Shown here: one piece after another, positions 8,483-53,568 of the stretch
Layout: the number at the start of each line of letters is the position of its first letter
Position numbering within the stretch: position 1 is the first letter of the stretch
NCBI GenBank assembly: GCA_028697555.1
Contig: JAQVEX010000007.1
Coordinates: forward strand, 1-58,166
Origin: Lentimicrobiaceae bacterium
GTDB lineage: Bacteria; Bacteroidota; Bacteroidia; Bacteroidales; UBA4417
Direction of reading: 5' to 3'
Length of the DNA: 58,166 nt
Program-made: the position numbers and the translations under genes
The notes under the pieces: model-generated
The model's database searches: none
Seen by the model: the letters and a program-made list of their open reading frames with translations, nothing else
Told to the model about the DNA's origin: nothing

Positions 8483-8959
8483 TTCTGTCGAAAAAATTAA
8501 AAATGCACAAACAAAATTACAAAAATTGTGATTATTTCAAAGGCTAATTTTTGTTATTAGCTGTTTGATCTTCAAAATAGGTGCTGTAGCACGTACAAAT
8601 ATCACCATTGAAATGTGTTTTAATAAAATGAGTTAAATTTACTTCTACTGTGATTGTCGTGCCACAAAAAAGAGTAAAACTTTCTTTATAAAGGTATCAC
8701 TTTTGACAATTAAGTCGACTTTTTTTAGATATAAATTTTTGCAAAAATGGTTTAATGGTTCGGTGCTACGCACCTGACTTAAGATTTTTATTATTTTGTT
8801 ACAAATGGGACGCCGTTATACGGCTTTTGTAAGTTGCTTTTAGCTTTTAGCTCTTGGCTATTAGCTATACTTAGCCAACAGCTAACAGCCAATAGCCAAT
8901 GGCTAAAAACTAAAGACATTTTTCTTTTAAAAAAAGCGCTACTTTTGGATTAAGCCTAA
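8483..8959. other. 477-bp intergenic region with several hairpins, no gene seen
   Basis: No coding frame is supported. Short perfect inverted repeats are spaced through it: GTGCT/AGCAC around 8580, GGTGC/GCACC around 8762, and GCCGT/ACGGC around 8812. A heptad-word array follows at 8836-8915. The block with GGGACGCCGTTATACGGC resembles a type of intergenic repeat I recall from other Bacteroidetes, which I cannot verify here. Confidence 0.55.
8836..8915. repeat. Heptad-word array 2 (TTAGCTA/TAGCCAA family)
   Basis: Period-7 words GCTTTTA, GCTTTTA, GCTCTTG, GCTATTA switch after GCTATAC to the complementary set TTAGCCA, ACAGCTA, ACAGCCA, ATAGCCA, ATGGCTA. The halves can pair as a long imperfect hairpin. 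It ends about 45 bp from the cdsA stop codon. Confidence 0.82.
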
Positions 8960-13149: not shown

Positions 13150-13259
13150 GTATTTAATTCAGAACTATAAAATATTGGTTTTTTATTATTTTTATTTAAC
13201 AATTATTTATTAATCATTTATTTGTGAGAAAGGACGAAACTTTAAATGCAAATACTGAT

Positions 13260-13267
13260 TACTTTTG
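13260..13267 (+). promoter_or_regulatory. -7 box (TACTTTTG) of birA
   Basis: TACTTTTG lies 13 bp before the ATG at 13281. With the transcription start some 5 bases after the box, the leader would be under 10 bases. This also argues against the longer GTG-started reading from 13224. Confidence 0.55.
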
Positions 13268-13280
13268 TAAAAAAATATTT

Positions 13281-14027
13281 ATGTCTGATTTTGATTACAA
13301 TATAATAAGGTACGATACAATTGATTCCACAAATAATGAAGCCTGTCGTTTGATTGAGAGCGGAGGTATTGAAAAAACTACTGTTTTGATTTCCGATTTT
13401 CAAACGTCGGGAAAAGGTGCAGGAAGCAACAAGTGGGAAAGTGAAGAAGGTAAAAATTTAACGTTTACAGTTATTTTAAAACCCGATATTGCCATAGAAA
13501 AGCAGTTTTACATGAATAAGCTTCTTTCTGTTGCTTTGTGCGATTTCATTTCGGATAACGTTGAAGACGAAATAGTTACAATAAAGTGGCCCAACGATAT
13601 TTATGTTGGCAACAATAAGATTATAGGCATTTTGATAAAAAACTATATTTCCGACAACAAAATAAAATACTCGGTGTGGGGTGTTGGAATAAATATAAAT
13701 CAGGAAGTTTTTTTGAGCGATGCTCCAAACCCTATTTCGCTTAAGCAGATCACTCATAAAACCTACGACCTGAACGTGATGTTGCAGGAAGTTATGAAAC
13801 ATATTTTAAGCAATTATTCGCTTTTGTTTGCAGATAGATATGTTTACATAAACAACTTGTATCACGAAAACTTATACAAAACAAACTGTTTGCAAAAATT
13901 TAAAATTCAGGGGTCTGAGGTTATTGCCAGAGTAATGCGTGTAAACGAGTACGGACAATTGGAAATAGAATACGGCAGCAAGCTGCATCAATTTGATTTT
14001 AAAGAGATTGAGTGGGTTGTGGGTTAG
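13281..14027 (+). CDS. birA: Biotin-[acetyl-CoA-carboxylase] ligase
   Basis: The 248-residue enzyme attaches biotin to carboxyl-carrier proteins. It has YDTIDSTNNEA at the N-terminus, the biotinyl-AMP loop TSGKGAGSNKW, the KWPNDIYV motif and GVGININ. There is no N-terminal helix-turn-helix, so it is the non-regulatory single-domain type. The start is the ATG at 13281. A GTG at 13224 would add 19 residues with no family match and would overlap the -7 box. The last codons (WVVG and stop) are written in the heptad words of the following array. Confidence 0.93.
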   Translation: MSDFDYNIIRYDTIDSTNNEACRLIESGGIEKTTVLISDFQTSGKGAGSNKWESEEGKNLTFTVILKPDIAIEKQFYMNKLLSVALCDFISDNVEDEIVTIKWPNDIYVGNNKIIGILIKNYISDNKIKYSVWGVGININQEVFLSDAPNPISLKQITHKTYDLNVMLQEVMKHILSNYSLLFADRYVYINNLYHENLYKTNCLQKFKIQGSEVIARVMRVNEYGQLEIEYGSKLHQFDFKEIEWVVG

Positions 14028-14078
14028 TGTTGCGTGTTGCGTGGTGGTGATGAGAGATGAGTGATGAGAGATGAGTGA
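14011..14078. repeat. Heptad-word array 3 (GTGGGTT, GTTGCGT, ATGAGAG families)
   Basis: Words of 7 nt run without a break in register: GTGGGTT, GTGGGTT, AGTGTTG, CGTGTTG, CGTGGTG, GTGATGA, GAGATGA, GTGATGA. The first words form the last codons and stop of birA. The array runs into the first copy of the 214-bp repeat. Confidence 0.82.
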
Positions 14079-14284
14079 CGACATTTTCGGTCATTGAGTG
14101 CCGATATTGAGCGAAGCGAGATATCGGTGTATCGAAATGCCGAAAATAGTGGATTGATATTAGTGTCATTATTAATAGCCTGTCTTTAAAGGCACAGCAA
14201 TTAAATCTAATAATTTAGTCTAAGTGGTGAAAATGTTGGGACTTTTAGTCTTCGCCGCTCGCTTTGCAAAAGCGAGCGAGCATC
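14071..14284. repeat. 214-bp structured intergenic repeat, copy 1
   Basis: It is aligned gap-free with copy 2 at an offset of 299 bp, with about six substitutions in 214 (~97%). Its parts are: outer inverted repeat ATTTTCGG/CCGAAAAT, inner stem CCGATAT/ATATCGG around GAGCGAAGCG, a weaker hairpin around TCTTTAAAGG, and a terminal hairpin CGCTCGCTTT gca AAAGCGAGCG. Open frames in it are not conserved protein-like. Confidence 0.88.
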
Positions 14285-14378
14285 GGTTAGTGTTGCGTGT
14301 TGTATGGTTACGAGTTGCGTGGTTCGTGTTACGTGGTGGGTGATGGCTTGTCCCGAGTATTCGGGAGTGATGAGTGAC
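14285..14378. repeat. Heptad-word array 4 (GTTGCGT/GGTTACG family)
   Basis: Period-7 words GGTTAGT, GTTGCGT, GTTGTAT, GGTTACG, AGTTGCG, TGGTTCG, TGTTACG, TGGTGGG are followed by a CCCGA/TCGGG palindrome. It separates the two copies of the 214-bp repeat. Confidence 0.78.
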
Positions 14379-14583
14379 GACATTTTCGGTCATTGAGTGC
14401 CGATATTGAGCGAAGCGAGATATCGTTGTATCGAAATGCCGAAAATAGTGGATTGATAGGAGTGTCATTATTAATAGCCTGTCTTTAGAGGCACAGCAGT
14501 TAAATCTAATAATTTAGTCTAAGTGGTGAAAATGTTGGGACTTTTAGTCTTCGCCGCTCGCTTTGCAAAAGCGAGCGAGCGTC
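14370..14583. repeat. 214-bp structured intergenic repeat, copy 2
   Basis: Same length and organisation as copy 1. Differences include a G-to-T at the edge of the inner stem and two changes next to the TTTAAAG loop. The terminal CGCTCGCTTT/AAAGCGAGCG hairpin is perfectly kept. Confidence 0.88.
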
Positions 14584-14590
14584 GATGAGA

Positions 14591-14625: not shown

Positions 14626-14658
14626 AAAAAAAAGACTGCTTTTGGCAGTCTTTTTTTT
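14626..14658. terminator. Bidirectional terminator between birA and POT transporter
   Basis: GACTGC (14634-14639) and GCAGTC (14645-14650) pair around a 5-nt loop, with eight As before and eight Ts after. This is a textbook rho-independent hairpin readable from both strands, placed between convergent genes. Confidence 0.88.
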
Positions 14659-14676: not shown

Positions 14677-16200
14677 TTACTTAGCAACTCGTTCTAACCA
14701 TTTGAGCATTACTAACATTGTAGTCATAGAGATTAGACATGCTACAACGAAAATCATCCATGTTGCCCATACCGGAATGCTATTGTAGAAAATAACACCG
14801 ATAAATAGAAGTTGATTTCCTAAAGCAGTAGCACTTAGCCATCCGCCTTGCATAATTCCTTGATATTTTGGAGGAGCAACTTTCGAAACGAAAGCAATGC
14901 CCAAAGGAGAAATAAACAGTTCGGCAACGGTTAAAACAAAATAAGTAATAATCAACAAGAATGGCGAAACACGTTCAGCTTCGGTTAGTCCGCCCTTTGC
15001 AATTCTTTCTGCAGCATCCGGCAATCCTATTGAACCTATTGTCATTATTCCAAATGCTAAAGCGGCAATTCCCATACCTATTGCAATTTTCTTAGGAGTA
15101 GATACTTCCCATCCTCTATTACGCATCCAACCGAATAGCCCGATGATTATAGGAGTAAGCGTAACAACAAAAATAGGATTAAATGCTTGGAACACTTCCG
15201 CCCCTTGTAAGGTAGTAAAGCCTAAGTTGATATTTATCATTTTTGTGTAGTCGCTGGCAAATAGTGTAAGTGTTTGTCCGTTTTGGTGGAACGAGAACCA
15301 GAAGAAAATAACAACGCCAAAAACAGCAAATAGAGCGTACATACGTTGTCTGATTTCTTTTACATCCATTTCAACTACGTTAGCATCTTGTTTTGTATCA
15401 GCAGATTTTAGTGAAGGATCTGGTAATTTCTTTTTGTTTGATACAAAAATTGCTAGAGAAATTAACATTGCAAATATTGCAATACCAAAAGAGTAGTGGT
15501 AGCCTTCCATAAAAACATTTAAATACTGGTTGGCAAAGACAGTTAAGTCGCCCGTTTTATCTCCTACTTGTACAGCCAATTCCGACAAACGCATTTGTGC
15601 GTCCGGTGCAATAGTGCCATTTAAATATTGGTTACAAAGTGCGGGTAAGTCAGCATCGAATTTAAATCCGTTGAATTGCACCCACCAGTTTCTTAAACCA
15701 ACTGCCATGATAGGAGCAAACATAGCACCCAAGTTGATAAACATGTAGAAGATTTGGAAACCTGTCTCACGTTTTTCGGCGTACTGAGGATTGTCGTAAA
15801 GCTGACCCACAACTGCTTGCAAGTTTCCTTTAAACAAACCGTTACCAAAAGCAATGGCAAACAGTCCGAAACAAGTATAAGCAAGAATTAAGGGGAAGTT
15901 TTTTACAGGCGTTTCAGTAGGAATTGCAATGAGGATATATCCAATCGTCATTAGCAACAAACCTGCCATAATTGTGTTTTTGTACTTTTTCGTTTTATCT
16001 GCGATTAATCCGCCAACTAATGCTAAGATGTAGATTAAAGCGTAGAAAACCGAATAAATAATAGCTCCTTCAGAGCCGGAAAATCCGAACTTATTGTTCA
16101 GAAACAGTAGCAAAATAGCCATCATTACGTAGAATCCAAAGCGTTCTCCCATGTTGGCTAAAGCTGCTGGAATTAGTCCTTTTGGTTGTCCTTTAAACAT
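14677..16200 (-). CDS. POT family proton-dependent oligopeptide transporter
   Basis: The 507-residue inner-membrane protein of the MFS superfamily has about 12-14 membrane segments. PTR2/POT family signatures are visible: GERFGFYVMMAILLLF near the N-terminus, LFKGNLQAVVGQLYD, and ETGFQIFYMFINLGAMFAPI. The N-terminal ERFGFY corresponds to the ExxERFxYY proton-coupling motif in reduced form. It probably imports di- and tripeptides, which suits a peptide-using organism. It is monocistronic, with its own -7 box upstream and a hairpin terminator downstream. Confidence 0.92.
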   Translation of the reverse strand: MFKGQPKGLIPAALANMGERFGFYVMMAILLLFLNNKFGFSGSEGAIIYSVFYALIYILALVGGLIADKTKKYKNTIMAGLLLMTIGYILIAIPTETPVKNFPLILAYTCFGLFAIAFGNGLFKGNLQAVVGQLYDNPQYAEKRETGFQIFYMFINLGAMFAPIMAVGLRNWWVQFNGFKFDADLPALCNQYLNGTIAPDAQMRLSELAVQVGDKTGDLTVFANQYLNVFMEGYHYSFGIAIFAMLISLAIFVSNKKKLPDPSLKSADTKQDANVVEMDVKEIRQRMYALFAVFGVVIFFWFSFHQNGQTLTLFASDYTKMININLGFTTLQGAEVFQAFNPIFVVTLTPIIIGLFGWMRNRGWEVSTPKKIAIGMGIAALAFGIMTIGSIGLPDAAERIAKGGLTEAERVSPFLLIITYFVLTVAELFISPLGIAFVSKVAPPKYQGIMQGGWLSATALGNQLLFIGVIFYNSIPVWATWMIFVVACLISMTTMLVMLKWLERVAK

Positions 16201-16282: not shown

Positions 16283-18391
16283 TTAAAATTTTAATCGTAA
16301 TACAGCTTTAAAATCCGATTTGTTATTACCTTGAATTTCGGATAAGTCAGAACTTATTGTATGCCTGTCGTTGTAATGAGTTATAGCATATCTGAGCATG
16401 ACGGTTACGTTGCGGTTTAGGTCTGTTCTGAACATAGCGTAAAATCTGCTGCCATTGCCGTAAAATGAGGGTATTGAAAACGAATACGGAACATCGTTTT
16501 CGTAGGTATAAATTCTGGTGTCGTAAGAATCGGTATCAAATAAAACGTAACGCATATCTAAACGCCAATTTTTATTTGCAGGTTTTATTTGTATTCCCTG
16601 ATAAATCAGATGTCCAACTTCTTTACCCTTAGTTACCGAGTTTCGGTTTATAAATTCAAAACGATTTTGGACTTTCAGCCACGAAAGTAGTTGATAGTTG
16701 AACTGAATACGGTAATAGTCGCGGGAGATGGTGCCTATTTTGTTTAGTTTAAATTCGCTGCTGATGAAATTTTGTGGATTTATCATTTTTCTGTAGCTTC
16801 CGATAATTTCTCCACGTCTGGAAAACTCGTAAGTCAGCTGTGTAGCATATTCACTTCCTTTTGAAGGAGCATCAACGCGGTATTTCAGCCATTTGTACTC
16901 AAACATATCGGCGTAGGCACTAATTGTAACCTTATTTAGCGGAGTAGTTATAACTCCCAAGTACAAGCCGCTTTCGTTGGTGTTGTTGCCATTTTCGCCG
17001 AAGGCATTGCTTTTGGGATTAAAGTAATTTTTTTGGTAGTTTCGGAACACAGCCGACAGAGATATTTTTGGGTCGGGCGAAAACGAAGCACCTTGCAGAA
17101 AAGCCGTTCCTGCATCTAATTGATATGCAAATTCACCGTAGAGCGTAAGTTTTTTATATATCGTGCTATAATCAACGCCAAAGTATGTATTGTTTTCCAA
17201 CGATGGATAAAACTTTTTGTACAAAGCGGTGTTTTCAACAAAAGGCATGTTGTAGCTTAGGTTTAGTGCAGAGGCTCCAATATTCAAAGAATTAAATCTG
17301 TAAGTAACTCTTCCGCCTATGGCTTGCTCTTTTACAGAGTTTTTCTTGTTTATTTCGCCCAAAGTCCTGTGATATCCGGTTTCTTGAATAGACGAAATTC
17401 TTTGTTCTATATCTGCTAAGGAATCGGAAGTGATTATGCCTGCATCTTTTGGAGTATTACCATAAAAAACCGTAAACTCAAAATTCCCAAAACCCAATGT
17501 TGTTGCAGCACCACGCATAAATGTATATTCATTTGACGAGCTGTGCGGTTTTATTGGGTCGCCGTACCTGCGAGAAACCAAGCTGCCGTTCATTTTGCCC
17601 ATAGTAAAACCATTCCACATAACTAAGCCCTGTCCCAATTGCACTCTGTAATCGCCAATGGCAAGTTGTTTCACAAAGCCAACATCTTTAAGCATAAAAT
17701 GGAGTGAATAAAAGTCGAAGCCTTTTTTCAGAGTATCGTACTTGTGGAAGAGCGGTTCGCCCGCATCTTTTTCGGCAACAAAGCCGAAACGCAAATAGTT
17801 TTTGTAGTTGTATTGAGCCCTTATCAGAAGAGCATCGGGACTGCCTAAATAATATCTGTTTGGGTTTAAGGCAAATGTTGAATCGTTGAATTGTCGGTAG
17901 CCCTTTTGTTCTTGCAAAACACGTTGATAACGCATCAATATATTGGTTTTGCCGTATTTAAAAGCCCTTTTCAGACTAAATTTTTCGGGGACATATTCGG
18001 AAAGTGTAACGTAAGGACTGATTAGCATTATAAAATCATCGCTAAACCCTTCGATAGTTATAAGTTCAAAAAGTGAAGTGATATCGCCGTAATTTTGCTT
18101 GTATTCCTGTAAGTTTTTAATCTGCTGTTCGTTGAGCAGCGGTAGTCGGCGAAGTTCGCTTTCGTCTTTGGCGTTGAGGTTTACGGGATTATATTTTAAA
18201 TATTCGATATCCGTAACAAATTCGCTGAGGTCAACTTCGCTATCCAAACGTTCAATAATATTTTCCATTTGTTGTTCAATAGCGTCGTTTATAGGTGCCG
18301 ACTGAATTGTGTCGATTTCTTGCGAAAAAACCTTAGTTCCTGCCAACAGCAAAACAAACATCAATGAGAACAAGGGTATTATATTTTTCAT
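16283..18391 (-). CDS. Helix-hairpin-helix (ComEA-like) protein with predicted outer-membrane beta-barrel
   Basis: The protein has 702 residues from the ATG at 18391, which gives a clean signal peptide (MKNIIPLFSLMFVLLLAG...FSQ). An ATG at 18421 and a TTG at 18445 are alternatives. After an acidic linker comes a ~65-residue segment with two HhH-type motifs (NLNAKDESELRRLP, LQEYKQNYGDITSLFEL, ending SPYVTLSE), laid out like ComEA but with the glycine hairpins degenerate. The remaining ~550 residues alternate aromatic and polar positions and end in KAVLRLKF, a typical outer-membrane strand. The pairing with the upstream PorV-like gene (overlapping or 43 bp apart, depending on the start) suggests one unit. 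DNA binding is inferred from the motif only. Confidence 0.82.
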   Translation of the reverse strand: MKNIIPLFSLMFVLLLAGTKVFSQEIDTIQSAPINDAIEQQMENIIERLDSEVDLSEFVTDIEYLKYNPVNLNAKDESELRRLPLLNEQQIKNLQEYKQNYGDITSLFELITIEGFSDDFIMLISPYVTLSEYVPEKFSLKRAFKYGKTNILMRYQRVLQEQKGYRQFNDSTFALNPNRYYLGSPDALLIRAQYNYKNYLRFGFVAEKDAGEPLFHKYDTLKKGFDFYSLHFMLKDVGFVKQLAIGDYRVQLGQGLVMWNGFTMGKMNGSLVSRRYGDPIKPHSSSNEYTFMRGAATTLGFGNFEFTVFYGNTPKDAGIITSDSLADIEQRISSIQETGYHRTLGEINKKNSVKEQAIGGRVTYRFNSLNIGASALNLSYNMPFVENTALYKKFYPSLENNTYFGVDYSTIYKKLTLYGEFAYQLDAGTAFLQGASFSPDPKISLSAVFRNYQKNYFNPKSNAFGENGNNTNESGLYLGVITTPLNKVTISAYADMFEYKWLKYRVDAPSKGSEYATQLTYEFSRRGEIIGSYRKMINPQNFISSEFKLNKIGTISRDYYRIQFNYQLLSWLKVQNRFEFINRNSVTKGKEVGHLIYQGIQIKPANKNWRLDMRYVLFDTDSYDTRIYTYENDVPYSFSIPSFYGNGSRFYAMFRTDLNRNVTVMLRYAITHYNDRHTISSDLSEIQGNNKSDFKAVLRLKF

Positions 18392-31519: not shown

Positions 31520-31651
31520 AGTGCGATATATTTGAGATTAAACAATTTTCCACAAGTTGCTAATAGCAATTAATAATAAATACTTCTTCGGAAAATCTGA
31601 CTGCAAATATATCTCCTAACACAGCTTTTCACCCGAAGCTATTTAGTATTT

Positions 31652-31824
31652 CTGATAAGCAGGCAGGTCTTCTGACTCGTTCTCTTTCTGCTTTCCTTCC
31701 CATTTTTTATTAAAACAGTGGTTATTTAAGCAGAATTTTGATAGCGGAACTCACAGCTACGGGGATAGTTTCGGATTTTCACCGAATTCCCTTTTAATCT
31801 ACAGTGTAGAACCATTTTATCGAT
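31652..31824 (-). promoter_or_regulatory. Cobalamin (adenosylcobalamin-type) riboswitch
   Basis: Read on the minus strand, the element shows conserved AAAAGGGAA, GGTGAAAATCC, ACTATCCCCGTAGCTGTGA, and the 3' B12 box GTCAGAAGACCTGCC (complement of 31662-31676). GATAA near 31820 can pair with TTATC near 31655 as closing stem P1. It lies 133 bp upstream of the DUF4465 gene and should shut off the uptake cassette when cobalamin is plentiful. Confidence 0.95.
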
Positions 31825-31825
31825 G

Positions 31826-31855
31826 CAAATATACAATAATTATATTAATTGCAAA
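31826..31855 (-). promoter_or_regulatory. Promoter of the B12 uptake cassette (-33 TTTG, -7 TATATTTG)
   Basis: On the minus strand TTTG (31852-31855) is followed 18 bases later by TATATTTG (31826-31833). Both Bacteroidetes promoter elements match exactly. Transcription would begin near 31821, right at the first base pairs of the riboswitch. Confidence 0.7.
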
Positions 31856-33039: not shown

Positions 33040-33102
33040 ATTTATTTCTAAAAAAACTGCATTTATTTGGTAAAATATCATTGTTTTTTGCTTTGGCTTT
33101 TT

Positions 33103-33142
33103 GTGATGAGTGATGAGTGGTGAGTGGTGAGTGGTGGGTTGC
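33103..33142. repeat. Heptad-word array 6 (GTGATGA/GTGAGTG family)
   Basis: GTGATGA, GTGATGA, GTGGTGA, GTGGTGA, GTGGTGG in unbroken period 7. It runs into the third, diverged copy of the structured repeat. This is one of only two arrays lying between divergent 5' ends. Confidence 0.75.
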
Positions 33143-33275
33143 AATATTTTCGCTCACTGAGCTAGTGCCCACCGAGCGTAGCCGAGGTGTCGAAGTGCCG
33201 AAAATGAAGGGTTGAGTAGTGTATTTTTATCAATTGCCGTGCCTTTAAAGACACGGCAATTGAAGCTAATGGAAT
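33143..33275. repeat. Structured intergenic repeat, diverged copy 3
   Basis: It aligns with the first ~150 bp of the 214-bp repeat: ATTTTCG...CTGAG...GTGTCGAAGTGCCGAAAAT, then a hairpin around CCTTTAAAGA. The inner stem differs in sequence (CACC/GGTG instead of CCGATAT/ATATCGG) but is still paired. The second hairpin is perfect here (CAATTGCCGTG with CACGGCAATTG, 11 bp). Confidence 0.75.
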
Positions 33276-33916: not shown

Positions 33917-34072
33917 AGTGGTTGGTTTGAGGGAAGTTTTGAGTTCTGAGTTTCGAGTATAGAGTTCCAGACTCCAAACTCCTGACTCGGAACTCATAAC
34001 TAACTCCACCAATCACCGACCACCATTCACTATTCACCATTCACCAATTGTTCATTGCTAATTGTTAACTGC
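33917..34072. repeat. Heptad-word array 8 (GAGTTTC, ACTCATA, CACCATT, CAATTAG families)
   Basis: Starting right at the hsp20 stop codon, words GAGTTCT, GAGTTTC, GAGTATA, GAGTTCC change into ACTCCAA, ACTCCTG, ACTCGGA, ACTCATA, then CACTATT, CACCATT, CACCAAT, and finally TGTTCAT, TGCTAAT, TGTTAAC. The last words supply the stop codon and last codons of the DUF6580 gene on the other strand. Confidence 0.85.
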
Positions 34073-34695: not shown

Positions 34696-34857
34696 TGTTA
34701 GTGGTTGGTGATTAGTAATTGGTGGTCAGTGGTAGGTGGTTAGTGATTGAGGGAAGTTTCGAGTTCTGAGTTTCGAGTGTTGAGTTCTGAATTTCAGACT
34801 CCTGACTCGGAACTCATAACTCAGAACTATCCCCGCAACCCGTACCCCGCAACACGT
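34696..34857. repeat. Heptad-word array 9 (GTTAGTG, GAGTTTC, ACTCATA, CCGCAAC families)
   Basis: About 23 words in one register: GTTAGTG, GTTGGTG, ATTAGTA, ATTGGTG; then AGTTTCG, AGTTCTG, AGTTTCG, AGTGTTG; then ACTCCTG, ACTCGGA, ACTCATA, ACTCAGA; then CCGCAAC, CCGTACC, CCGCAAC. The GAGT and ACTC halves can pair. It ends exactly at the fucosidase stop codon. Confidence 0.87.
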
Positions 34858-41575: not shown

Positions 41576-41676
41576 GTTGCGTGGTGCGGGTTGCGTGTTA
41601 CGTGGTGGCTTTTAGCCATTAGCTCTTGGCTATTAGCCAAAGTTAGCCAACGGCTAAGAGCCAAAAGCTAATAGCT
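41576..41676. repeat. Heptad-word array 11 (GTTGCGT and TTAGCCA families)
   Basis: GTTGCGT, GGTGCGG, GTTGCGT, GTTACGT, GGTGGCT change into TTTAGCC, ATTAGCT, CTTGGCT, ATTAGCC, then into the complement GTTAGCC, AACGGCT, AAGAGCC, AAAAGCT, AATAGCT. Left and right parts of the GGCTA words can pair. It lies between divergent pfp and the radical SAM gene. Confidence 0.84.
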
Positions 41677-41733
41677 TAATGATACGAATAACATGAAATA
41701 TGACGAAAAATGAGCAATTTTCAGTCAAAATAT

Positions 41734-41745: not shown

Positions 41746-42675
41746 ATGAGTAAAACCGAAAGATATTACAGCTTTACCAAATTTTTGAGAGAAAGATTTG
41801 GAGCCAGAGTTCAGAAATTGGCTATAGATGCCGGTTTTACCTGTCCCAATCGTGATGGGAGTAAATCGTATGGAGGTTGTACTTATTGCAATAATTCGGC
41901 TTTTAATCCTTCGTATTGCACACCCGAAAAATCAATTGCTCAGCAAATAGAGGAAGGGATTGAGTTTCATAAAAGAAGATACAGGCGAGCCGTAGGGTAT
42001 TTGGCTTATTTTCAGGCTTTTTCCAATACATACGCACCTCTAAACGAGTTGAAACAAAAATATGCTCAGGCATTGCAAAACGAGCAGGTTTTAGGTATTG
42101 TTATCGGCACACGCCCCGATTGTGTTGATGATGAAAAGTTGGACTACTTATCGGAGTTGAACAAAACACATTTCGTATCAATTGAATACGGCATAGAATC
42201 GTGTTACAATCAGACATTAGAAAAAATAAACAGATGCCATAGTTTTGAAGATACGCAGTTGGCAATAGTAAAAACTGCCGAAAGAGGTATTCATGTTGGA
42301 GGTCATATTATTTTTGGCTTGCCGGGCGAAACTGAAGAGATGATGATGCAAGAAGCGGAAATTTTGTCGCAATTACCTTTAAATTCAATAAAATTTCATC
42401 AGTTACAAATTTTTAAAAATACGCCGATGGCTCAAATGTTTAAGGATAATCCTTCGGAATTTAAGTTGTTTGAGCTGCAGCAATATATTAGTTTTATAGT
42501 CGGTTTTTGCGAGAAATTACGACCCGATATTGCCATAGAGCGTTTTAGTAGCGAGGCTCCGCCATCGTTTTTGGTTAATTCTCCGTGGAGCAACCTACGC
42601 ACCGACCAGATTTTAAACTTGATAAAGAAGGAGTTTGTTGTTCGGGATACTTACCAAGGGGTTTACTTCAATTAG
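41746..42675 (+). CDS. Radical SAM protein, TIGR01212/YhcC family
   Basis: The protein has 309 residues from the ATG at 41746. The radical SAM cysteines are in CPNRDGSKSYGGCTYCNN (C-x-C spacing of the YhcC type, CxxxxxxxxxxCxxC). Further family text is GTRPDCVDDEKLDYL, YGIESC, GRGIHVGGHIIFGLPGE-like and LPLNSIKFHQLQ. Members bind a [4Fe-4S] cluster and S-adenosylmethionine, but the substrate is unknown. The final FN and TAG are written in the heptad word CAATTAG of the following array. Confidence 0.9.
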   Translation: MSKTERYYSFTKFLRERFGARVQKLAIDAGFTCPNRDGSKSYGGCTYCNNSAFNPSYCTPEKSIAQQIEEGIEFHKRRYRRAVGYLAYFQAFSNTYAPLNELKQKYAQALQNEQVLGIVIGTRPDCVDDEKLDYLSELNKTHFVSIEYGIESCYNQTLEKINRCHSFEDTQLAIVKTAERGIHVGGHIIFGLPGETEEMMMQEAEILSQLPLNSIKFHQLQIFKNTPMAQMFKDNPSEFKLFELQQYISFIVGFCEKLRPDIAIERFSSEAPPSFLVNSPWSNLRTDQILNLIKKEFVVRDTYQGVYFN

Positions 42676-42853
42676 CAATTAACAATTAACAATGAGTTCT
42701 GAAGTTTCGGGATTACGTGGTGCGGGTTACGTGGTACGTGTTGCGTGTTGCGTATATTTCTTAGAACTTCTAACTTCGGTTTTCCGACTTCAGTCTTCCG
42801 ACTTCACCAGCCAACAGCTAACAGCTAACGGCTAAAAGCCAACAGCCAACGGC
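42669..42853. repeat. Heptad-word array 12 (CAATTAA, GTTGCGT, AACTTCT, ACAGCTA families)
   Basis: CAATTAG, CAATTAA, CAATTAA, CAATGAG; then GGTGCGG, GTTACGT, GGTACGT, GTTGCGT; then AACTTCT, AACTTCG, GACTTCA, GACTTCA; then ACAGCTA, ACAGCTA, ACGGCTA, AAAGCCA, ACAGCCA, ACGGCAC. Four word families follow each other in nearly one register. The first word carries the stop codon of the radical SAM gene. Confidence 0.86.
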
Positions 42854-49761: not shown

Positions 49762-52092
49762 ATGAAAAAATTAATTTTTAGATTTTTATTAATCTTGGCT
49801 ACATTTTTATTGTATGCCGAATACTCATCTAAAGCTCATGCTTCAAATATTTTTACCGAAGTAGAAAACCCTTTCGGATTTGAAGGCGAATGGACACATC
49901 TCAACGGACCTTATGGAATATCACCGAGAGAAATAGTTGTTGATAGCAATAATAATTTGTACATGATTGGAGGTCGTGGATTACGTAAATCAGTTAATAA
50001 TGGTGAAAGCTGGACTTTAATTAACGGAGATGTGTTTGGTAATTCATTGACACTTGTAGATGACCATACAATGTTGATTGGAGACTGGGGAGGTGCTTTT
50101 CGTTCTACAGACTGCGGAAATACTTGGGATACAATTCTTAATATCAATATTAATTATTGGATTACAGATGTTAAGTCTTTCGGAAATGATATGATATTTG
50201 CGTCTTTAGTTAATTTTTTTGGAGCTGGAGGAGTATATAAGTCGGTTGATGGTGGTGAAAATTGGCGGCTTATCAGTTTTGAATCGGTGTTTTGCTTGGA
50301 AATTGACCAGAATGGTACGTTGTATGCAGGAACTTCAGATAATTTGTACAAATCTGATGACTTTGGTGAAACATGGACACCTTTGCTCAATGATTATGCA
50401 AGTATAGCAGCAATATCAACTGACAACAACGGAAGTGTTATTGCCGTTTCCAATAATGATTATGGGGCAAGTAGGATGTACATTTCAAAAGATTATGGTG
50501 AAACTTGGAGACGTGGCGAATTGATAAAAAAATACATGTATGTAATTCACGATTTTGAAGGAAATGTTTTAGCTGCCACTCAGCATGGCGAACTATTTAA
50601 ATTTGATGCTAATTGCGAGAATTGGACTCTTGAGTTAAAAATATCCACACCACTTCTTTGCATAGCCGAAAATAGCAATCACGACTTATTTGTCGGTGCT
50701 GGCAATAGCTTTGGTATATATAGGAGATTGTATAATAACTCTAGTTGGGAAATTGTTAATGACAGCTTGCCATATCTTGAAATTAGAACAATAGGTCAAT
50801 TTAGTACGGGAGAGATAATTGTTGGAACAAATGGCGGAGCTAGAATAAGCGAAGATGAAGGAGAAAGCTGGCATCAATTCAGTGAAAAATTAGGCAGAAA
50901 AAATATTGTTTCAATGACCATAACTCCCGACGATTACGTGTTTGTGGGAACGTCGGCTACAGGAGGCGGAGGTATTTACAAAAGACATGTTTACGATACT
51001 GCTTGGACTGTAAGCCATCCTCCATACGACTTAGTTTATGCGTTAGCAAATGACAGTCAGGGGGTCTTGTACGCAGGTGCACAATCGAGTGTTAAGAGAT
51101 CACTAGATAATGGTGTTACATGGGAAAACGCCAGTAATGGCATGGCTGGCTGGCATGCGTTTGACTTTGAGTGTGACAATAATGGCAATGTTTATGCTGC
51201 AACTAGTAGTGGTATATATATATCAGAAAATCATGGTGAATTGTGGAGTATATTTGGTTTGCAAAATAAAAATGTTTTACTAATCAAAATTATTGACAAT
51301 TATTTTTATGCTGCCGGCGAAGGAGGAGTGTATCGTAAAGCTTTAGACAGTAATAAATGGATTTCGATAAACAACGGTCTAACTGAATTTCATGTTTTAG
51401 ACATAGAAATTGACGATAAACAAACTCTTTATATGGCAACAATGGGATGTAAAGTATATTATTCCGATGACTATGGTGATAATTGGCAGGAGGCACAACC
51501 TGATATAGCTTGTAATGTTCAAGCCATTAAGTTTTTAAATAATTCAGTTTTTTTTGGGTCTAATTTTGATGGTATTTTTAAACTTTGCAGAAATCTTGAT
51601 AAGTTTAATGTATTTGCCTACGTAAAGCCACCAAATACAGGAACTGTGAGCGGAACAGGTTGCTACAATAAGGGCGAAACTGTTGTTTTATCGGCTCAAG
51701 CAAACGAAGGCTACATTTTTTCCAATTGGACGGAAAACGGTCAAATTGTTTCAACTCAAGAAAATTATACTTTTACTATAAATGAAAACAGATATTTGCA
51801 CGCCAACTTCAAGCCCGCTACCGGAATAGATAATTCTTTACTAATCTCAGCAGATGTTTATCCAAATCCTTTTAATGATAAGATTAGTATAAAAATAAAC
51901 GAAGTTAATCCTCAAAATGTTGAAATTCAACTTATAAATAGTTTAGGACAAACAGTTTATAGTAAAAACCACAAAGTTGCAGATAACGAGATTATTGTAA
52001 ACACTCAATCGCTGCCTGCAGGAATTTACATTTGCCGAGTGTTGTCAAATAATAAACCAATTTCATCAAATAAAATTATAAAAACGAAATAA
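49762..52092 (+). CDS. T9SS-exported beta-propeller (BNR/YCF48-like) protein
   Basis: The 776-residue protein has a signal peptide (first ~27 residues ending KAHA). About ten BNR/YCF48-type repeats follow (~40-620), each with a YKSxDxGxTW-like core such as GVYKSVDGGENWR, NLYKSDDFGETWT and VKRSLDNGVTWEN. Next is an InlB-B-repeat-like segment (~625-690: TGTVSGTGCYNKGETVVLSAQANEGYIFSNW, shortened here to its key words). The T9SS type A domain starts VYPNPFNDKISI. The ligand or enzyme role is unknown. The last ~235 bp are nearly identical to those of the next gene, 45 bp downstream. Confidence 0.88.
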   Translation: MKKLIFRFLLILATFLLYAEYSSKAHASNIFTEVENPFGFEGEWTHLNGPYGISPREIVVDSNNNLYMIGGRGLRKSVNNGESWTLINGDVFGNSLTLVDDHTMLIGDWGGAFRSTDCGNTWDTILNININYWITDVKSFGNDMIFASLVNFFGAGGVYKSVDGGENWRLISFESVFCLEIDQNGTLYAGTSDNLYKSDDFGETWTPLLNDYASIAAISTDNNGSVIAVSNNDYGASRMYISKDYGETWRRGELIKKYMYVIHDFEGNVLAATQHGELFKFDANCENWTLELKISTPLLCIAENSNHDLFVGAGNSFGIYRRLYNNSSWEIVNDSLPYLEIRTIGQFSTGEIIVGTNGGARISEDEGESWHQFSEKLGRKNIVSMTITPDDYVFVGTSATGGGGIYKRHVYDTAWTVSHPPYDLVYALANDSQGVLYAGAQSSVKRSLDNGVTWENASNGMAGWHAFDFECDNNGNVYAATSSGIYISENHGELWSIFGLQNKNVLLIKIIDNYFYAAGEGGVYRKALDSNKWISINNGLTEFHVLDIEIDDKQTLYMATMGCKVYYSDDYGDNWQEAQPDIACNVQAIKFLNNSVFFGSNFDGIFKLCRNLDKFNVFAYVKPPNTGTVSGTGCYNKGETVVLSAQANEGYIFSNWTENGQIVSTQENYTFTINENRYLHANFKPATGIDNSLLISADVYPNPFNDKISIKINEVNPQNVEIQLINSLGQTVYSKNHKVADNEIIVNTQSLPAGIYICRVLSNNKPISSNKIIKTK

Positions 52093-52137
52093 GCATAAAA
52101 ATTCACCTTGTTAGTAACCCTTTAAAACCACACAATT

Positions 52138-53442
52138 ATGAAAAAATTACTACTCCTATTAGCTTTTGCATTAATTTGCATAAGTGCAAAAGCCCAAACA
52201 ATAACGTGGGAAAAGATAAATCTTCCTTATAAGACATGTGTGTACGACATGGTTGTGAACAATAAGGGAGATATATTTATTGTTGCTAAATCGGAAAATT
52301 CTCATGCAGATACTGCTGTAATCCTTCGTTCTACTGACAATGCGACAACTTGGCATGAAGTGTCAAGAATTTGGAATTCTTCAGTGATAAGCATGACCAT
52401 AAATAATAGGCAAGAAGTTTTTTTGTCCAACGGAGGACTTTGGAAATCAGACTCAACCGGTACTATTTGGAACAAATTTGTGGTAGGCGGCATTGATAAT
52501 CTTTCGTATTCTAAAATTAAATGTTTGGGAAGCGATTCGCTACTTGTTCTTGGAGTAACATTAGGAGAAGGCGGTAATAATGATATATTACTAAAGACAC
52601 CTGATTTAGGCTTATCTGTTGACACACTGTATTATGAGCCTCATTGTGCTATGACAATAACAACAGGTGTTGAATTTTATCCACCAAATGATATATTTAT
52701 TGCCATAACTGATTTTCCCATGATGGGAATGTGTGGTGGTGTTTTCCGTACTCAAAATGATGGATTAAGCTGGACTGAAATAGGTTTAAGTGATCAGCAA
52801 ATTTCCGGTGTTACCATGACAGAACAAGGTAACTTATTTATCTCTTCGTGGCAATCGCTCACACCCAATACCAGCACATCAGGTGTATTTATTCTCTACA
52901 GCGGGACTGATACTTTTGTACAATGCTTTGACTACGCTTTCATAACCGATGTAGCGGTTAACTCAAGCAGTTATATTTTCGCATCATTTAATACTTACCA
53001 TGGTACTTTTCCTATATACCTATCAACAGACAACGGTAGTACATTTGCACCTTGTTCTGACGAAATGGATGGCATTTTTAGGTTATATTGCGATAAATTT
53101 GATTACGTATATGCTTTCCCCGAACGTAGCGAAAATTTCATTTACAGAACCGCTAGTCCGACAACGAATAACGACGAGAAAATGCTAAACGCATGTAAAC
53201 CAAACGTATATCCAAACCCTTTTAATGATAAGATTAGTATAAAAATAAACGAAGTTAATCCTCAAAATATTGAAATTCAACTTATAAATAGTTTAGGACA
53301 AATAGTTTATAGTAAAAACCACGAAGTTACGGATAACGAGATTATTGTAAACACCCAATCGCTTCCTGCAGGAATTTACATTTGCCGAGTTTTGTCAAAT
53401 AATAAACCAATTTCATCAAATAAAATCATAAAAACGAAATAA
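52138..53442 (+). CDS. T9SS-exported beta-propeller protein, shorter relative of the preceding gene
   Basis: The 434-residue protein has a signal peptide (MKKLLLLLAFALICISAKAQ). Sialidase/YCF48-like repeats (~25-350) include LRSTDNATTWHEV, GLWKSDSTGTIWNKF, VFRTQNDGLSWTEI and YLSTDNGSTFAP. The T9SS sorting domain starts VYPNPFNDKISIK. There is no InlB-like segment. The propeller part is only loosely similar to the 49762 gene, whereas the sorting domain and even the bases after the stop codon are almost identical. Both genes probably share the promoter at 49690. Confidence 0.87.
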   Translation: MKKLLLLLAFALICISAKAQTITWEKINLPYKTCVYDMVVNNKGDIFIVAKSENSHADTAVILRSTDNATTWHEVSRIWNSSVISMTINNRQEVFLSNGGLWKSDSTGTIWNKFVVGGIDNLSYSKIKCLGSDSLLVLGVTLGEGGNNDILLKTPDLGLSVDTLYYEPHCAMTITTGVEFYPPNDIFIAITDFPMMGMCGGVFRTQNDGLSWTEIGLSDQQISGVTMTEQGNLFISSWQSLTPNTSTSGVFILYSGTDTFVQCFDYAFITDVAVNSSSYIFASFNTYHGTFPIYLSTDNGSTFAPCSDEMDGIFRLYCDKFDYVYAFPERSENFIYRTASPTTNNDEKMLNACKPNVYPNPFNDKISIKINEVNPQNIEIQLINSLGQIVYSKNHEVTDNEIIVNTQSLPAGIYICRVLSNNKPISSNKIIKTK

Positions 53443-53568
53443 GCGTAAAACACAAAACTTATTTCATACACACTCAAAAAAAACTACAGCACTAAAATGT
53501 GTTATATTTTGAGGTATTATTACCTTTGTACAATTATAAAAAAGACGAAATGAATATGGCAGAGATAA
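53443..53568. other. Intergenic part before the pbp2 leader array, no gene seen
   Basis: It holds the -7 box at 53521-53528. A 23-codon frame (ATG at 53551) begins in this stretch and reads through the first words of the repeat array. Nothing else supports it as a gene. Confidence 0.45.
53521..53528 (+). promoter_or_regulatory. -7 box (TACCTTTG) upstream of pbp2-rodA-galE
   Basis: TACCTTTG is an exact consensus match. The next supported start codon downstream is that of pbp2 at 53771, giving a leader of about 235 bases made almost wholly of a repeat array. Confidence 0.55.

Follow-up and report, generated by a model that had tools for sequence, protein, structure and literature searches.

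The question raised by this locus is what kind of element a near-identical pair of structured repeats represents, and what could have brought it between two genes. The window, by which we mean the whole 58,166-nucleotide stretch of DNA that was analyzed, is contig 7 (G000:C7) of a 2.33-Mb Bacteroidota genome in 88 contigs, and the pair is preceded by a biotin-ligase gene (13224-14027, +) and followed by a POT transporter gene (14677-16200, -). The initial annotation described two gapless 214-bp copies with about six differences; the match extends to 225 bp (14066-14290 against 14365-14589, offset 299 bp) with 96% identity, no gaps and nine mismatches, six of which fall inside those 214 bp. Since a segment of 18 bp, into which the biotin-ligase gene end extends, is repeated at the left border of the second copy (Table 1), the pair is a local tandem duplication, and this common gene end rules out two independent insertions. 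A third, diverged copy lies at 33143-33275 between a TerC-family gene and an Hsp20 gene; the ATTTTCG/CGAAAAT frame, the CACC/GGTG inner stem and the perfect second hairpin earlier ascribed to it are all present, and it is without the third hairpin (module C).

Three mutually unrelated palindromes, modules A, B and C, are joined in the repeat as a mosaic, and each is dispersed between the genes of its own genome. Module A is a 65-bp palindrome, module B is a hairpin centred on CTTTAAAG (as a type, a TTTA loop with a free stem), and module C is the hairpin CGCTCGCTTT-GCA-AAAGCGAGCG. A BLASTN search of the 225-bp query against its own genome returned 66 places at E<=10, the top one outside the window at 3.7e-37, and the majority of these places span just query positions 8-87, 95-147 or 182-222. 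The order A, B, C is repeated with other spacers on contigs 27 and 1, and single modules occur elsewhere. The first reading of the locus had missed the three separable modules, the border repeat and the dozens of copies on other contigs, so that the family is far from limited to the three copies then seen. At E<=1e-3 the same query found matches in none of 15 congeneric genomes and in one of 44 other relatives; the pattern TTCGGTCAYTGAGTGCCG has 19 matches in its own genome, none with a reversed-pattern control and none in 394 other genomes of the class, and a BLASTN search for module B in relatives gave one match (genome G035, E 8e-4) with no clear hairpin.

Table 1. Positions in the window of the repeat modules and of the borders of the tandem duplication
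Feature	Position	Strand	Evidence
18-bp left border of tandem duplication (biotin-ligase gene end and word array)	14022..14039	+	sequence reading
Module A, copy 1: outer stem ATTTTCGG/CCGAAAAT, middle CATT-GA/GA-AATG, inner CCGATAT/ATATCGG, tandem-GA core TGAGCGAAGCGAG	14083..14147	+	DNA fold z -3.81 (14081-14148)
Module B, copy 1: CTTTAAAG-centred hairpin, decayed	14170..14205	+	own DNA fold weak, z -0.67
Module C, copy 1: CGCTCGCTTT-GCA-AAAGCGAGCG	14256..14278	+	DNA fold z -3.80 (14251-14283)
18-bp left border, second copy	14285..14302	+	sequence reading
Module A, copy 2	14382..14446	+	pair alignment
Module B, copy 2	14469..14504	+	pair alignment
Module C, copy 2	14555..14577	+	pair alignment
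Module A, third copy, two-level nest: CACTGAG[CTAGTGCC CACCGAG[CGTAGC]CGAGGTG]TCGAAGTG	33146..33205	+	
Module B, third copy, arms perfect	33230..33263	+	

Intergenic DNA also carries degenerate arrays with a 7-bp period (GATGAGT, AACTCGT, GGCTATT, CAATTAG and others), found in the window at 8833-8908, 14022-14080, 14285-14380, 33100-33140, 41605-41690 and 42669-42710 and in locus L067 at 1736-1802 and 2910-2955. Forward words are often placed to the left of a module, with reverse-complement words to its right. According to part of a paper on TAACTGA repeats (PMC4679880), further heptamer assemblages are known in Bacteroidetes intergenic regions. The window contains in addition a 75-bp intergenic direct repeat of 7-bp words (88%; 33927-34001 and 34747-34821), a 250-bp direct repeat (94% identity; 51851-52100 and 53201-53450) and an ordinary cobalamin riboswitch (107.8 bits; 31645-31831, minus strand).

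Selection on structure, first suggested by paired changes between copies, is borne out by stems that pair and covary beyond shuffled controls in the A hairpins, the A frame and module B. Among 33 distinct A hairpins (33 of 34 sequences, one 24-mer containing N being left out), 88.3% of cells are paired against 59.9% after shuffling, and the covariation score is 0.685 against 0.200, a value reached by none of 500 shuffles; when the partner is shifted by 1-3 columns, at most 52% remain paired. Within the A frame, 235 of 260 cells are Watson-Crick against a shuffle mean of 191 and maximum of 223 (0 of 10,000), a test on 24 of 25 rows, 20 of them distinct, for which C44:6815 was left out (the expression bridged two units) and the middle stem was unused for the choice of rows. 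Module B is 88.6% paired against 82.8% shuffled (0 of 500).

Each module type has an enzyme gene in its own genome with hairpins of the same type adjoining, and the pairing is seen in other genomes too. A search for Y1 transposases and RAYTs in the genome returned four genes, and the REP-associated transposase gene whose search had been proposed at the outset was found on contig 25, where an ORF of up to 207 aa is a RAYT (NF047646, 100.5 bits, cut-off 80) with C-type hairpins on both flanks. Its motifs NHIH, WQ and YIHQNP match those given for TnpA-REP subclass 2.6, a Bacteroidetes group that is described, in part of PMC6006769, as flanked by "atypical secondary structures" without GTAG. No GTAG or GTGG foot was seen at the base of the C hairpins examined; because that part of PMC6006769 describes the subclass without one, the missing foot does not exclude subclass 2.6. 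Module C thus resembles REP/BIME/REPIN sequences with a subclass 2.6 RAYT in being made of dispersed hairpins without a GTAG foot that also flank a RAYT with the subclass motifs, while its GCA/TGC loop and its exchangeable stem are results of the present analysis, which was compared with passages of the text of PMC6006769. Hairpins were counted as near when within 300 bp of the gene, and as far in stretches 4-8 times longer. At 80 named RAYT loci, GCA/TGC-loop hairpins number 25 near (47.9 kb) against 21 far (391.6 kb), are present at 21 loci only, and fall to 3 near when pairing is strict, the figure of 25 allowing G-T pairs. On contig 31, a RAYT-like gene of 194 aa (L110 1137-2034) carries AAACCTAACAGGTTT-TTG-AAACCTGTTAGGTTT palindromes on both flanks, and these palindromes also build units on contig 81.

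The partner of module B adjoins the same RAYT: an IS200-like TnpA gene (NF033573, 63.9 bits, cut-off 55) is flanked by B-type hairpins, another of which closes the far side of the RAYT/IS200-like cluster. TTTA/TAAA-loop hairpins at 29 IS200-like loci number 28 near (17.3 kb) against 2 far (65.5 kb), with flanking hairpins at only 16 of the 29. Six of seven control loops give 0-1 near these genes; the remaining one, TTCA/TGAA, gives 11 near and 2 far and may belong to the same system as the TTTA loop. Module B is like the subterminal hairpins of IS200/IS605 in flanking an IS200-like TnpA gene, as TTTA-loop hairpins flank its homologues, and unlike them in that gene-less solo copies are scattered and stems vary between genomes. 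Elsewhere in the genome, on contig 45 (L065 1138-2140), several GGTGCGTTAGCACC / GGTGCGTAGCACC hairpins stand on both sides of an IS200-like transposase gene.

The initial annotation was right on structure and on a REP/BIME-like nature, which holds in kind for B and C with their flanked enzyme genes, and wrong in supposing a single element with a single enzyme. Three palindromes make up the mosaic, and module A goes not with a Y1 transposase but with a GIY-YIG nuclease. The first lead was a Flavobacteriaceae locus with a GIY-YIG ORF near three copies of the GAGCGAAGCGAG-type core, which led to a search for GIY-YIG genes and to five matches in the genome under study. One of these, on contig 40, encodes a protein of 108 aa (PF01541, 63.5 bits, cut-off 22.6), and its gene is bracketed by A-type palindromes together with a 44-nt direct repeat (98%) on the two sides. 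Residues Y7, Y17, G19, R27, H31 and E64, which we take to have catalytic roles, are invariant in eight aligned proteins. The protein matches the small GIY-YIG proteins of UPF0213 over the GIY-YIG domain (1zg2 and 1ywl, E 1.7e-14 and 8.3e-11), and homologues at E<=1e-15 are found in 96 of 395 class genomes.

We took as a close set the best 29 GIY-YIG loci outside the genome itself (E about 1e-36 or better). A tandem-GA helix with an arm of at least 4 lies within 300 bp of the gene at all 29 loci, and tandem-GA hairpins with an arm of at least 6 lie at 24 of them, 73 near (17.2 kb) against 16 far (62.2 kb); the core motif alone as selector recovers 28 of the 29. No other mismatch dinucleotide pair occurs more than three times near these genes, GA/GA and its reverse complement excepted. 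With the same detector a single tandem-GA hairpin was found near the 29 IS200-like loci and two near the 80 RAYT loci, counts on which neither a RAYT nor an IS200-like gene is accepted as the partner of module A. The near counts of each hairpin type at the other enzyme families are 0-2 throughout, hairpins of types B and C were not found near the close GIY-YIG genes, and none of the Y1/RAYT loci of the genome under study is flanked by A. An association general to small GIY-YIG genes is likewise rejected: near 30 divergent, more weakly matching GIY-YIG genes, even in palindrome-rich genomes, only two tandem-GA hairpins occur, neither of the YTGAG...CGAAR type, so that within the UPF0213-like homologues the palindromes belong to the close subfamily of the 29 best loci only.

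The A hairpin has the form X-YTGAG...CGAAR-X' around a tandem G.A core, in which stems such as GTGCCT/AGGCAC, TACCCT/AGGGTA and GTGATT/AATCAC interchange and GAG...CGA is constant. At 139 core-motif sites (28 of the 29 loci), stem positions 1-4 are Watson-Crick in 136, 131, 123 and 112 cases, and at nearly all sites a pyrimidine precedes GA and a purine follows it on both strands. In DNA, Py-GA-Pu is the context in which sheared tandem G.A pairs are stable. Hairpins occur in both orientations at 24 of the 29 loci. Module A resembles the GTAG- and CGTC-tagged repeats of PMC3733652, short dispersed bacterial palindromes found partly in Bacteroidetes, and differs from them, as far as they are described in part of that paper, in its YTGAG...CGAAR tandem-GA core, its nests and its GIY-YIG gene partner; the CGTC-tagged repeats have, according to the same part, no dedicated transposase. 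A GIY-YIG enzyme as the partner of palindromic repeats was not found described in a titles-level screening of the open-licence PMC literature.

Several further GIY-YIG loci deserve mention in their own right. In two genomes of one genus, a syntenic GIY-YIG locus (L274 1-300 and L275 1324-1480, 95%) differs in its numbers of tandem-GA hairpins, which shows turnover of the hairpin array, not its cause. On a Sphingomonas plasmid (L331 1777-1798, one of five plasmid loci examined), the tandem-GA hairpin GCCCTGAGCGAAGTCGAAGGGC is embedded in the 3' end of a GIY-YIG gene situated between nrdR and an RNA methyltransferase gene. The genome under study has a second small GIY-YIG gene on contig 10 (L266 1203-1860, near 16612-16827 of the contig; 100 aa) amid tRNA-Asn-like repeats with GTCCCGCAACTGCGGGAT in place of the anticodon arm, the real tRNA-Asn lying at 1203-1277, and at locus L173 a GIY-YIG ORF reaches up to a tRNA-Ser gene.

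A hairpins are also found within one another. In the genome under study, what the frame CAYTGAG[...]TCGAARTG encloses varies between a plain loop, the mini-hairpin TGCC-GAA-GGCGTA and another GA hairpin, and one copy on contig 40 has three nesting levels; 13 of 81 distinct GA helices enclose another, some long-loop helices among the 81 being due to chance. On contig 81, two units 201 bp apart are identical over 122 bp of left flank and 81 bp of right flank but have inner parts that differ (49 against 34 nt), and window copies 1 and 3 differ likewise, with the same frame and another inner hairpin. Both cases fit a putative insertion or exchange at the hairpin apex. Nested hairpins with exchangeable insides would be a mode of growth that we have not seen described for REPs.

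The GAGCGAAGCG-type core had been described as common in Bacteroidetes, and TGAGCGNAGYCGAA, which stands for one loop type of the YTGAG...CGAAR palindromes, is indeed present in 203 of 395 sampled class genomes. At least five palindromes occur in 51 of the 96 genomes with the GIY-YIG gene and in 59 of the 299 without it (Fisher p 1.3e-9, with no phylogenetic correction), in a presence/absence test that covers 202 of the 203 TGAGCGNAGYCGAA-positive genomes. Among 28 high-copy genomes outside the E<=1e-15 list, 19 have weaker GIY-YIG matches and nine have none at E<=1e-6, including G099 (195 matches) and G076 (136); a weak GIY-YIG match is present in 11 of 28 zero-copy genomes. Palindrome-rich genomes that have no such gene imply that the gene is often lost after amplification, that another enzyme is at work, or that the gene is a guest among the palindromes.

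On the ground of what is directly established, namely the modules, their dispersal, the covariation of their stems and the association of module with enzyme here and in other genomes, we infer that the hairpins are mobilised by their partner enzymes. Three REP-like palindromes would have gathered 3' of the biotin-ligase gene, in a single intergenic spot, and the stack would then have been duplicated in tandem along with the last bases of that gene. Module C may be copied as a single-stranded hairpin by the subclass-2.6 RAYT and module B, in the same form, by the IS200-like Y1 transposase, and module A may be propagated via the small GIY-YIG endonuclease. The latter would read the tandem-GA hairpin, with Py-GA-Pu in either strand, by its shape and core, not by its stem sequence, and the apex of an A hairpin could itself be a target, so that nests would form as new A hairpins arise within older ones. 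A GIY-YIG gene with hairpins of both orientations next to it would be the counterpart of a REPtron/REPIN arrangement with a non-HUH enzyme. We regard this model as a whole, a stack of three palindromes with HUH-enzyme copying of B and C and GIY-YIG propagation of A, as probable. More tentatively, and with somewhat less than even chances, a GIY-YIG subfamily that propagates sheared-G.A hairpins with preferential insertion at the apex may constitute a second, HUH-independent REP/REPIN system and the source of YTGAG...CGAAR palindromes in Bacteroidota, perhaps also in Alphaproteobacteria, an extension made because the Sphingomonas plasmid gene end holds GCCCTGAGCGAAGTCGAAGGGC.

Three other readings have to be set against this model. 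The GIY-YIG gene could be a guest, a homing-type nuclease landing in abundant tandem-GA palindromes that were spread otherwise, by a lost transposase or by replication slippage and recombination. GIY-YIG domains occur in homing endonucleases, the contig 40 protein has a weak match to TIGR01453 (E 0.0076, far below cut-off), and palindrome-rich genomes exist without such a gene. A guest, however, would leave two halves of a split palindrome, whereas the flanking hairpins are complete, as a rule several to a locus and of both orientations, and the association is confined to one close subfamily; we consider this reading unlikely, though deserving of some weight. Much less can be said for a single mobile element (MITE) in which the whole 214-bp unit was moved entire by one transposase. 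Although the A-B-C order is common to both window copies and, in varied form, to contigs 27 and 1, most genomic places match one module only, on which one composite MITE is rejected; spacers vary among copies, and the tandem pair includes the biotin-ligase gene end and is hence a local duplication, so that we give this reading hardly any credence.

It is also improbable, though not to quite the same degree, that the palindromes are kept for a role in RNA or transcription, as 3'-end hairpins that end or protect messages, with the enzyme link being secondary. Their gene contexts lean in that direction, 11 of 22 being convergent and one divergent (a weak test on mechanical ORFs, inside which 6 of the 22 fell), where gaps of at least 60 bp in the examined blocks comprise 23 convergent, 16 divergent and 31 tandem cases, and copy 1 folds strongly as RNA (z -4.16; weak in the third copy, z -2.13). 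The fold is also strong as DNA, however, a terminator-like hairpin with T-runs stands apart from the repeats at 14626-14658, and the sheared-GA cores and the flanking of enzyme genes would be left without explanation. An Rfam search gave no match at the repeats, on which a known structured RNA is rejected, and the early suggestion that the repeat may be an RNA has gained no positive support.

The YTGAG...CGAAR palindromes are very common in Bacteroidota, and a titles-level screening of the open-licence PMC literature brought up no paper naming the enzyme behind them. If the GIY-YIG endonuclease does propagate module A, REP-like partnerships would have arisen twice, on enzyme folds that are unrelated, and a 108-residue protein together with a 24-nt hairpin would allow a direct test of where a large class of bacterial palindromes comes from.
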